Positions 1 to 18,251 of a stretch of 21,452 nt of DNA are shown one piece after another. The stretch is from IMG/VR virus record IMGVR_UViG_3300008116_000434, positions 1 through 21,452 of that record; one strand, 5' to 3'. Every line of letters begins with the position of its first letter. Position 1 is the first letter of the stretch. A model generated the notes under the pieces. The model was not told the origin of the DNA. It was given only the letters and a program-made list of their open reading frames with translations, and did no database searches. The DNA is from a virus. A program made the position numbers and the translations under genes.

Positions 1-30
1 TGTTGCTCTATCCTGCTGAGCTACGGGACC
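1..30 (-). tRNA. tRNA gene, 5' half only (cut by window edge)
   Basis: Read on the minus strand from 30 down to 1, the sequence gives acceptor 5' strand GGTCCCG (30-24), TA, D-stem GCTC (21-18), D-loop AGCAGGATA containing the GG pair, D-stem GAGC (8-5), then the first bases of the anticodon stem. The anticodon lies outside the window, so the amino acid cannot be read. The 5' half resembles bacterial tRNA-Arg types, but that is only an impression. It lies downstream of the tmRNA terminator, so it probably belongs to a phage tRNA cluster continuing to the left. Confidence 0.85.
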
Positions 31-56
31 ATATTAGTATTATACGCTATAAACAC

Positions 57-404: not shown

Positions 405-530
405 TTCGCCTTCATCAAAGTAACACCTGTTTTATAGTCTTTCGACTAATGGTTATTCGAACCGTAACTCAATACGGCATCTTTAATCTGGATACCAACC
501 CAAGACAGATGTTACCGTGATGAAGGCGAA
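405..530 (-). ncRNA. Structured RNA element A (first of three tandem paralogues)
   Basis: Perfect 13-bp closing helix: 405-417 (TTCGCCTTCATCA) with 518-530 (TGATGAAGGCGAA). After an internal loop, GTAACA (420-425) pairs with TGTTAC (510-515). After a 1x1 mismatch, CTGT (427-430) pairs with ACAG (505-508). Inside, the minus-strand RNA has a TAGTC-GAAA-GACTA hairpin with a GNRA tetraloop and a CCGTA/TACGG or GGTT/AACC hairpin. There is no coding signal. The GNRA loop forms only on the minus strand, the direction of the neighbouring tmRNA. The element shares its conserved core with the elements at 541 and 656. No known family is recognised. Confidence 0.7.
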
Positions 531-540
531 CTTACTGATA

Positions 541-657
541 CGGATTCATCAAAGTAACACCGACTGTTACCTGCGCTTCTCACTATGCGCTTTTCGGGCC
601 ATGGTCCCTAGATAACCCCGTGGCGTTATTGGTGTCGATGTTACCATGATGAATCCG
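541..657 (-). ncRNA. Structured RNA element B (second of three tandem paralogues)
   Basis: Closing helix CGGATTCATCA (541-551) with TGATGAATCCG (647-657), 11 bp perfect. Its outer four pairs differ from those of element A on both strands at once. The conserved GTAACA (554-559) / TGTTAC (639-644) helix follows. Then CGAC (561-564) pairs with GTCG (634-637) where element A has CTGT/ACAG, a fully compensatory change. The interior can form GCGC/GCGC, GGG/CCC and ATAAC/GTTAT hairpins on the minus strand. The spacing from element A is 10 bases. Confidence 0.7.
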
Positions 658-777
658 CCCCATCAAAGTAACACCGAATTTACCTTTCGGATGGTTATTA
701 AGTGGGTCATACCTTATGTGGAAAATACCACAGCCACGGGATGCCAGCCCTGATCCGATGTTACCATGATGAAGGCG
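656..777 (-). ncRNA. Structured RNA element C (third of three tandem paralogues)
   Basis: CATCA (661-665) pairs with TGATG (767-771), with outer CGCC (656-659) / GGCG (774-777) around a small bulge. The conserved GTAACA (668-673) pairs with TGTTAC (759-764). Then positions 675-679 and 753-757 pair as CGGAU/AUUCG on the minus strand, with one G·U that becomes an A·C mismatch on the plus strand, which supports minus-strand transcription. The interior has TGTGG/CCACA, GGG/CCC and CC-GAAA-GG hairpins. Its outer helix shares bases 656-657 with element B, so the two units overlap slightly. It ends 9 bases before the stop codon of the exported-protein gene at 786. Confidence 0.65.
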
Positions 778-14475: not shown

Positions 14476-14571
14476 TCAGATTATTGGGTTGAAGAGATAA
14501 TACACCACTACACATAATGGTGTCAATGCCATTAACCAAATAATAAAATTTGAAATAAACTGGTTAATCAT
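14476..14571 (-). CDS. 31-residue membrane peptide
   Basis: MINQFISNFIIWLMALTPLC continues VVVYYLFNPII: one long hydrophobic helix. The ATG overlaps the TGA of the GIY-YIG-like gene (ATGA), and its own TGA overlaps the GAGGT ribosome site of the next gene. The tight packing supports a real gene, but two promoter-like sequences lie inside or just above it, so part of the composition may reflect those. There is also an ATTAACCA/TGGTTAAT inverted repeat (14531-14538 with 14561-14568). Confidence 0.45.
   Translation of the reverse strand: MINQFISNFIIWLMALTPLCVVVYYLFNPII
14497..14526 (-). promoter_or_regulatory. Sigma-70-like promoter
   Basis: TTGACA (14526-14521), 18-base spacer, TATTAT (14502-14497) on the minus strand. 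It would start transcription near 14490, just before the ribosome site of the 45-aa gene. Confidence 0.6.
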
Positions 14572-14981
14572 AATATTTTACCATCCTGTTTTAAAGATGT
14601 CAAGTGAGATTTACTGACACGTAACAACATATATTCATTATAATATTCATCAAGCAACAAAGCATTTCTTTCAAATTGCTCTTTAGCTTCAAAATACGAA
14701 CACTCACCTTTGGTTCTACAAAGCCTAATAATTTCTCTTTTAAAGTTTCCTTTACCTAAAGATTCAACATCTTCATTTAAATTTTTATTAGAACCAAAAT
14801 ATTCTTTCCAATCACTTTCAACTTTTACACGTTTTTTCTTTTTCTTAACCTGTTTAGTTTTTGTGAAATGAAAAATCTTTTTACCAATATACTTTTTATT
14901 ATTAGTTAGGTTTGTTATTAGATAAACAAAACCTACATATTCGCCAATATCTTCAAATGGTTCATTATTATAATACCACAT
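14568..14981 (-). CDS. GIY-YIG-like nuclease family protein (137 aa)
   Basis: N-terminal MWYYNNEPFEDIGEYVGFVY, with the GIY-equivalent FVYLITN (residues 18-24) and YIGKK (31-35), followed by a Lys-rich loop, ESDWKEYFGS, FKREIIRLC and the acidic-residue helix SYFEAKEQFERNALL (E99 as the likely metal ligand). T4-like phages carry related stand-alone proteins; some GIY-YIG members are homing endonucleases, others act on DNA junctions. The GIY triad is degenerate (FVY). The start codon abuts a perfect hairpin whose loop contains the ribosome site, behind a late promoter. Confidence 0.75.
   Translation of the reverse strand: MWYYNNEPFEDIGEYVGFVYLITNLTNNKKYIGKKIFHFTKTKQVKKKKKRVKVESDWKEYFGSNKNLNEDVESLGKGNFKREIIRLCRTKGECSYFEAKEQFERNALLLDEYYNEYMLLRVSKSHLTSLKQDGKIL
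14575..14603 (-). promoter_or_regulatory. Sigma-70-like promoter in the 3' end of the GIY-YIG-like gene
   Basis: TTGACA (14603-14598), 17-base spacer, TAAAAT (14580-14575) on the minus strand. Predicted start near 14568, about at the ATG of the 31-aa peptide, so it more likely serves the genes further left. Tandem with the promoter at 14497. Confidence 0.55.
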
Positions 14982-16643: not shown

Positions 16644-18251
16644 ATGGCAGCACCAAACACTAAAGAATTAGCACAATGTCTAGCTTTTGCATATTTTGCC
16701 GAAAATCCTTCATATAATAAAAATATTAAATCTCAAAACATAGAACTGCTTTCAGATGGAAGCCCCAATAAACATGCCATAGATTTCTTTTCATTATTTT
16801 CTGGAAGAGTAAACGTATCTAATCTGAAATCAAAATATTTATCATCAAATTTCCCAATAGATATTGTTAAAAAAGATTTCGAGGTAAAAAAACTCCCAAA
16901 AACTGAAAAATTATCTTATCATACGACTGCTAAAAAAGTATATATGGTAGCTAAAAAGTGTATGGAAAATAATTTATTTTCATCAAGCAATATATCATCT
17001 TATCAGTTTTTAGATCAAAATGATCCTTTTGTTTTATTATTAAAAGACAAACTATTAGACAAAATTATCAAAACTTTTCATTTACCATATAAAGTAGACG
17101 TTCTATCATCAGTAGACATAATAGTTGTAAACAAATTAAAAAAACAAACAATAAGATTAGAAGCGGAAAAATTATTAAAAAATGAAACCATTCTTATAGA
17201 CGAATATTATAATTTAATTTCTAAATATATGAAAAGTAAAGATTTATTTCCTATATCATTAAAATTACCAGAGTCAATAAGCGGTAACATTCATATAAGA
17301 CAAATACAACATAATGTAAAAAGTTCCGATATCGATATAGACCCATATATAAAATTTTTAGACGGTATATTAGATAACCCATCTAAAACTGTAGATCATG
17401 TAGAAAAATTAATAAAAATAAACTTTGAAAAATTTTCTACTGGTGAACGCTTGAATTGGGAGTTTCCTGTATCTTTTAATTATTCTAACATATTAGACCC
17501 TTCCACAAAAAAACCTTTAGCAAATTATAATTTAAACTTTAATCTATTCGCACAAGGTTATGGCGCTGGCTGGAATGGTCAATTCGATAAATCATCAAAA
17601 ACATATCAAGGAACACAATGGGTTGGTGGTATATCAATATCAACATTTGAAAATTTTGCAAAAACATATTCAGGCTATTCAATTTTCACAAATGAAATAG
17701 TTCAAATAAGAAAAAAAATATTCGAAGATATGTTTAGAGAGATAACAAAAACTTCTAATATAATTCAAACACTTTTCATGACAAAATATAATGATGTGTT
17801 ATCTCTTTTAAGTGAAAACAAAATTCTATATAACAAAAGAGACCTTTCAAGAATAGACACTTTCTTCGATAGTTTAGAAAAAGAAATAGGTAGCGGTTCT
17901 AATTATAAAATTATATTCTATAAAAAATTTATAGAAGAAGTAATTTCAAAAATAAATAGACAATTTAAAACAAACACAAAAGATATGAAAAAATTAAAAG
18001 CTCATTTTGTACATGCTCAAATTTCATATTTTCTATTTCATGGTGGTCAAAATTTTGAATTATTTTTTAAGAAAAGATTGTTTTTAACTATTTTCGGTAT
18101 AATAACTAAAAAATCTCATACAGCTTTTAGAGTTGATGATTACTCATCTATGAAAGTTGTAGTAAAAGATATAATAAAATTACAAACCGAAAAAGAAGGT
18201 CAAAAAATGGCACAATCTTTTAAAACATTACCTCACTTTATAATTAGTTGA
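16644..18251 (+). CDS. Large unknown protein, probably late/virion-associated (535 aa)
   Basis: No domain recognised. It has no signal peptide and no clear membrane segment. The sequence is Lys/Ile/Asn-rich, with a central β-type region containing LFAQGYGAGWNGQFDKSSKTYQGTQWVGGISIS (about residues 300-335) and helical stretches on both sides. It is on the opposite strand to nearly all its neighbours, inserted between nrdA and nrdB, and preceded by a late promoter, which fits a virion or assembly protein. Its wobble positions are very AT-rich. The ribosome site is weak (AGTAGGT). The last 8 bases overlap the convergent gene at 18244. A structural protein is inference only. Confidence 0.7.
   Translation: MAAPNTKELAQCLAFAYFAENPSYNKNIKSQNIELLSDGSPNKHAIDFFSLFSGRVNVSNLKSKYLSSNFPIDIVKKDFEVKKLPKTEKLSYHTTAKKVYMVAKKCMENNLFSSSNISSYQFLDQNDPFVLLLKDKLLDKIIKTFHLPYKVDVLSSVDIIVVNKLKKQTIRLEAEKLLKNETILIDEYYNLISKYMKSKDLFPISLKLPESISGNIHIRQIQHNVKSSDIDIDPYIKFLDGILDNPSKTVDHVEKLIKINFEKFSTGERLNWEFPVSFNYSNILDPSTKKPLANYNLNFNLFAQGYGAGWNGQFDKSSKTYQGTQWVGGISISTFENFAKTYSGYSIFTNEIVQIRKKIFEDMFREITKTSNIIQTLFMTKYNDVLSLLSENKILYNKRDLSRIDTFFDSLEKEIGSGSNYKIIFYKKFIEEVISKINRQFKTNTKDMKKLKAHFVHAQISYFLFHGGQNFELFFKKRLFLTIFGIITKKSHTAFRVDDYSSMKVVVKDIIKLQTEKEGQKMAQSFKTLPHFIIS

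Follow-up and report, generated by a model that had tools for sequence, protein, structure and literature searches.

Three structured units upstream of a permuted tmRNA gene

The window, by which we mean the whole stretch of 21,452 nucleotides that was analyzed, is a 21-kb IMG/VR fragment of a freshwater phage. Its first positions hold, on the minus strand, a permuted (two-piece) tmRNA gene, called as tmRNA* by ARAGORN and matched by the Rfam models RF04321 (90 bits) and RF01849 (81 bits). The acceptor piece (328–400, 5′ boundary approximate), identified by both models and by ARAGORN, contains the T arm and a CGCCUCCA-CCA 3′ end. It is followed by the intervening segment (ITS) of the real tmRNA (216–327), 108 nt with a closing stem of UAAACCGAGA/UCUCGUUUUA and then UGAU, and by the coding piece (62–215, 3′ boundary approximate), which opens with 5′ GGGGGCG and encodes the tag ANDNYAPFDFALAA (codons 153–109). 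A tRNA gene (1–31, minus strand) is represented by its 5′ part, cut by the contig end; a tRNA-Arg(UCU) stands at this place in L349 and L354 (L-numbers are labels of relatives' loci or contigs). Elsewhere, the window encodes a SegE-type GIY-YIG endonuclease (14568–14981, minus strand; Pfam PF19835, E 8e-39) that may promote the exchange of genes nearby. A 535-aa protein encoded on the opposite strand beside the ribonucleotide reductase genes (16644–18251, plus strand) matches nothing in Pfam or PHROG.

Between the tmRNA gene and the gene at 786–1100, a reading made from the letters alone had described three tandem structured RNAs on the minus strand, and three such units are indeed present, with refined coordinates. 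Unit 1 (405–530), closest to the tmRNA, consists of CGCCUUC-A-UCA, an ITS-type cassette (418–517) and UGAU-GAAGGCG, its helix being lengthened by UU/AA. Unit 2 (541–657) has the arms CGGAUUC-A-UCA and UGAU-GAAUCCG around a cassette at 552–646, and unit 3 (655–777), furthest upstream, has CGCCUUC-A-UCA and UGAU-GGGGCGG around a cassette at 666–766. Positions 655–657 are common to units 2 and 3, belonging both to the 3′ arm of unit 3 and to the 5′ arm of unit 2. Relative to dinucleotide shuffles, the minimum free energy has a z-score of −9.8 for unit 1, −6.9 for unit 2 and only −1.95 for unit 3, whose outer arm is damaged (five of seven acceptor pairs), and of −6.9 for the whole 421-nt stretch. 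The proposed minus sense is supported by an excess of G-U over A-C among the non-Watson-Crick cells of the arms and by the better fold of that strand (−156 vs −135 kcal/mol for plus). Of the GNRA loops that had also been invoked, that of unit 1 stays GNRA among relatives, its GAAA tetraloop being GUAA in L189 and L203.

No Rfam family covers the units, in agreement with the original description of the family as unknown. At the gathering threshold, Rfam returned no family for the units or their contents (Y RNA, ribozymes, riboswitches, CRISPR and ToxI-like RNAs included), and at E up to 10 only chance-level matches besides tmRNA. The Rfam tmRNA models cover only 62–449 and 109–389 and leave units 2 and 3 unmatched. 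Where it extends into unit 1, the RF01849 match consists of unpaired flank; this match and that of ARAGORN run into unit 1 because of either the likeness of unit 1 or the model flank. Searches by blastn against 50,697 phage records with positions 1–1200 and the unit 2 and unit 3 interiors gave no match. A protein-coding reading of the units was rejected: the 68-aa ORF at 583–789 has no PHROG match and the signal is structural. T-loop or tRNA mimicry in unit 1 (GGUUCGAAUAACC) was likewise set aside, since the L144 homologue is a plain GGUUA/UAACC hairpin, as was a promoter-like site, TTGACA-17-TAATAT (1058–1030, minus strand), which is no more than expected by chance.

The unit arms correspond to the tmRNA acceptor-stem junction

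Relatives of the units were sought with a pattern built on both core arms; in its loose form this yielded mostly chance matches, which were sorted out by requiring complementarity of the outer arms. True homologues were obtained in L115, L126, L137, L160, L181, L189, L203, L205 and L144, while L145, L204 and L363 were discarded as chance matches or coding sequence. Units were absent from the loci neighboring PhoH, which mostly carry other tRNA arrays. Apart from L144, the homologues all have the upstream gene seen here, and on contigs that are long enough the unit precedes a tmRNA. L144 has this hairpin, its interior homologous to that of unit 1, as the ITS of the tmRNA (junction CGCCTCCACCA-CG-GTAACA...TGTTAC-TT-TGAT-GGGGGCG); the unit arms are therefore the counterparts of the acceptor stem, the CCA and the UGAU in a permuted pre-tmRNA. 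The architecture of a unit is that of this junction, a 5′ acceptor arm with CCA, the ITS, and UGAU with the 3′ acceptor arm, and the units accordingly show the features of an ITS module: an acceptor-like arm, YCA/UGAU, a 2-nt step, a closing stem and a loop cassette.

Two positions separate the copies from the originals. At acceptor pair 3-70, a G-U wobble is present in 99/99 distinct phage tmRNA junctions vs 2/18 distinct units, and position 74 is C in 98/99 junctions vs 3/18 units, 15 of the 18 reading UCA. Tested as permuted tmRNAs, the units show neither a G3-U70 acceptor stem with a 3′ CCA nor a T arm with a tag reading frame. U74 pairs with A(−2) in the units, so that the acceptor and closing stems become a single helix with one U-U or C-U mismatch. 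Alanine identity in tmRNA is specified by G3-U70; with this pair lost the unit should not be chargeable, and the unit arm should be a non-chargeable closing helix.

The helices of this arm covary, as had been noticed within the window: across the 18 distinct homologous units, double changes occur at 9 of 21 arm pairs. Arm cells are paired in 91.8% of cases vs 81.6% in shuffles (0/500 shuffles equal the observed score), and pairing falls to 31–53% when the arm registers are slid. Outer arms occur as CGCCUUC/GAAGGCG, CGGAUUC/GAAUCCG, CGCCACC/GGUGGCG and CGUCUUC/GGAGACG, and inner arms as GUAACA/UGUUAC, GAUACA/UGUAUC and GGCACA/UGUGCC.

The phage tmRNA ITS is a hypervariable slot

Two further scans gave at least 120 permuted tmRNA loci and at least 43 contigs with the acceptor-piece motif of the window tmRNA; as pattern scans are exact, these counts are lower bounds. 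Phage ITSs have a median length of 82 nt (IQR 62–118), the smallest being a 25-nt hairpin (L216), whereas the same pattern in bacterial (alphaproteobacterial) genomes returned 119 distinct ITSs that are short hairpins with a median of 34 nt (28–42). All 107 distinct phage ITSs, chosen by their flanks alone with no stem criterion, have at least eight of ten terminal pairs, and 934 of 990 ITS stem cells are paired vs 657 ± 11 with the 3′ arms shuffled. At least 15 of the 107 contain an ORF of 22 aa or more preceded by a Shine-Dalgarno-like motif, vs 2.0 ± 1.3 in shuffles, and phage ITSs without such an ORF are mostly RNA-like. The sequences show the phage ITS to be a slot whose closing stem covaries and whose contents, structured RNAs or small ORFs, are interchangeable.

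The tmRNA ITSs of L222, L225, L237, L240, L250, L304 and L484 (Melnitz), among others, contain such short reading frames behind a Shine-Dalgarno-like motif; the one in Melnitz is unannotated. Several of the peptides are hydrophobic (membrane-like), and the stop codon of some ORFs is the TGA of the TGATGGGG junction. Pfam matches to ITS ORFs were all below the curated cut-offs, the best being DUF2061. Separately, the real tmRNA of L340, L341 and L348 has UCA for the encoded CCA and would either depend on CCA addition or lack activity; its ITS is the same as that of the CCA-bearing L351. The tmRNA ITS of L432, a Rhodobacteraceae MAG, is nearly identical to the ITS of phage L321, which may reflect either a phage contig in the bin or exchange.

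The same cassettes recur across phages and slots

Interiors were compared all-vs-all with the stems trimmed off. The unit 3 interior is 98.6% identical over 73 nt to that of a unit in L349 (E 3e-33), which is closed by GAUACACUAG/CUAGUGUAUC; unit 3 is closed by GUAACAUCGG/UCGGUGUUAC. The unit 2 interior matches the ITS of L268 (83% over 71 nt, E 1e-17) and a unit of L349 (86%). It forms the tmRNA ITS in L268, L359, L360, L361 and L362 and an upstream unit in L349, and a 19-mer from this interior, searched in all IMG/VR contigs, occurs at six loci, of which five are tmRNA ITSs and the sixth is an upstream unit. Further, the ITS of L160 is a unit of L349 (100%), the first unit of L342 is the ITS of L340, L341, L348 and L351, and the ITSs of L181, L206 and L334 have a common core of 42–44 nt that is 98–100% identical in different stems. 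Unit 1 is near-identical and in the same place in L115, L126, L137, L160, L181, L189, L203 and L205, remaining almost invariant across relatives with wholly different true ITSs. Contents homologous to a bona fide tmRNA ITS are thus found for unit 1 (L144) and unit 2 (L268 and L359–L362); the tie for unit 3 is only through the L349 upstream unit and a distant likeness to unit 1.

RNA units outside the tmRNA occur in at least 22 of the 40 contigs with enough upstream sequence, the most being in L349, whose tmRNA is preceded by five RNA units and two ORFs; cassettes that are ORFs are found in L342, L349 and L351. L338 has no insert, and L340 has one insert between 13-nt direct repeats (ATAAATAGAATTG) of which L338 has a single copy; this points to a tandem duplication from which the acceptor domain was later deleted. 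The sequences show that the same cassettes also form tandem rows 5′ of the tmRNA, each enclosed by a disarmed acceptor-stem copy that makes one long helix, and that the contents recur across phages and slots in different closing stems, with compensatory changes in at least two families.

Structure inside the cassettes

For the unit 2 family, RNAalifold gives three inner helices, in which two of the pairs show double changes. A covariance-model search for homologues, as the sequence-only reading had proposed, was run with the family model R1 over about 1.5 Mb; at E < 1e-5 it returned only known family loci, the window unit and, as new matches, L329/L337/L345 (one sequence, E about 1e-6), where the match sits exactly in the tmRNA ITS and the helix GUUACC/GGUAAC is GCUAAC/GUUAGC. 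The apical loop hexamer of the family (L268, L349, L329 and window positions 552–646) is CUGCAG, CCAUGG or UGCGCA, all palindromic. These three palindromes, a post hoc observation on three variants, suggest a kissing dimer, and a kissing-loop dimer of the apical loops is possible; a CACCA/UGGUG pseudoknot in the family is weakly supported. A second cassette family (L160/L349 vs L271/L272) has an H-type pseudoknot with both-sided changes in both helices.

Units 1 and 3 both carry GGGYUGGYAUCC and AAUAACCAU, and, with interiors that are only distantly alike, are probably distant relatives; their joint model R2 is no independent test because it was built from both. The interior covariation is based on 6 + 1 sequences for the unit 2 family, four for the pseudoknot family and five for units 1 and 3. 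The three units had been called paralogous, which holds for the arms but not for the interiors, as that of unit 2 belongs to a different RNA family from those of units 1 and 3. T-arm-like hairpins, perhaps tRNA-derived, were also seen in cassettes (ITS or unit) of L203, L233, L300 and L340, e.g., GACGGUUCAAUUCCGUC and GAUGGUUCAAGUCCAUC.

Interpretation and alternatives

The origin of the units from the tmRNA ITS module is well supported by these sequence comparisons, and we consider it reasonably probable that the three units are displaced copies of this module that are swappable, co-transcribed, excised and active in trans. The units would be transcribed together with the tmRNA on the minus strand, and a long helix of about 20 bp would hold each cassette folded. 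Host RNases of the RNase III type, joined at the real ITS by tRNA-processing enzymes, could then cut this helix and release small stable RNAs, and the cassettes are probably excised in this form. The released RNAs might act in trans during infection, most plausibly facing the host as decoy, anti-defence or regulatory RNAs; host-facing modules would explain the rapid exchange of cassettes, and this exchange, like the presence of ORFs in place of RNAs, resembles what accessory functions directed at the host would show.

The main rival is a role in cis alone, in which the ITS stem and the units just fold the pre-tmRNA and align it for processing; the contents would be neutral filler, and the upstream units tandem duplications in decay. 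The existence of 25-nt minimal ITSs means that the contents are dispensable for tmRNA, the L340 insert with its 13-nt direct repeat is what tandem duplication predicts, and the broken outer arm of unit 3 is relic-like, which counts against the reading we prefer. We nevertheless judge a purely cis role unlikely: interiors are 83–100% identical in unrelated stems with helices kept through double changes, and such conservation argues against mere filler. Bacterial ITSs make do with short hairpins (median 34 nt), and unit 1 is near-invariant though the true ITSs of its relatives wholly differ, where neutral filler would not be kept.

Swapping of contents between positions and phages, the cassettes that are ORFs (L342, L349, L351), the SegE-type nuclease gene at 14568–14981 and the common use of tmRNA genes as integration sites (PMC11915505) would also fit a mobile or selfish DNA cassette, inserted in the manner of an integron, a recombinase or a GIY-YIG nuclease at an att-like acceptor-stem junction, with the RNA fold secondary. 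This seems improbable to us, as one content has differing closing stems among its copies and the unit boundary is therefore no fixed DNA site; in addition, G-U exceeds A-C in the arms, the array has no adjoining recombinase and the arms have no attC R-box (GTTRRRY/RYYYAAC), and ordinary homologous recombination with duplication is enough. The reading with which the locus was first described, independent phage small RNAs unrelated to the tmRNA and merely beside it, retains very little probability. Discrete, stable folds with no Rfam match are what it expects, but the arms are the tmRNA junction save for the identity elements, all unit 2-type homologues found are located either within the ITS of a tmRNA or in an upstream unit, and L144, L268 and L360 contradict it. 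The associated claim of an undescribed phage RNA family stands as to structured RNAs with homologues, compensatory changes and no Rfam match; what it missed was the link to the tmRNA junction and ITS.

With the units taken as displaced ITS modules, three orphan RNAs become one example of a general phenomenon, in which the phage permuted-tmRNA ITS, normally treated as a discarded spacer, is a hypervariable cargo slot. This gives a search rule, between CCA and UGAU-GGGG, for many undescribed RNA families and small ORFs, and a possible reason for two-piece tmRNAs in phages; isolates with a structured ITS, Rhodobacter phage RcSimone-Hastad (L485; host R. capsulatus SB1003) and Mesorhizobium phage Cp1R7A-A1 (L486), make the idea open to testing now. 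More tentatively, aquatic phages may use the split-tmRNA spacer and its non-chargeable junction copies as a platform for excised, host-acting RNAs and micro-ORFs, with the unit 2 family homodimerizing by a kissing loop. The cassette contents are in no Rfam family, and no report of them was found in the open-access literature. The same search, with subscription papers outside its scope, found no report of exchangeable ITS cassettes or tandem units, and the available portions of PMC9004378 and PMC11915505 mention neither.

Comparison with known systems

T4 stable RNAs 1 and 2 are likewise small structured RNAs of a phage tRNA region; no sequence or context link to the units has come to light. 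For a possible kinship with type III antitoxin or other anti-defence RNAs, the one observation is an H-type pseudoknot in one cassette family. An integron cassette array resembles the locus in combining a slot with exchangeable cassettes in tandem and an imperfect inverted repeat around each, but here the unit arms are derived from an acceptor stem and show compensatory changes, and the cargo is mostly non-coding. The attC boxes GTTRRRY...RYYYAAC are absent, the arms reading GTAACA/TGTTACTT or GATACA/TGTATCTT, and no integron tyrosine integrase (IntI) was present among the proteins scanned in the window, a contig fragment, or beside the array.

RNA genes nested within a tmRNA gene offer a further parallel. 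A group I intron located in the tmRNA T loop is another case of such cargo; Rfam detected no self-splicing intron in the cassettes. The 2025 tmRNA database paper notes a tRNA-Ala within one permuted tmRNA ITS (PMC11915505), and the survey of Melnitz-type phages and phage tmRNAs places 50 of 53 phage two-piece tmRNAs in aquatic settings (PMC9004378). The present locus differs from such cargo in that many unrelated RNAs and ORFs are involved, swapped between phages and duplicated outside the gene. Differing from permuted tmRNA (RF01849/RF04321) in standing in tandem outside the gene without T arm, tag, G3-U70 or CCA, the units resemble it in the order of acceptor arm-CCA, ITS stem and UGAU-acceptor arm, and share its loop cassettes.
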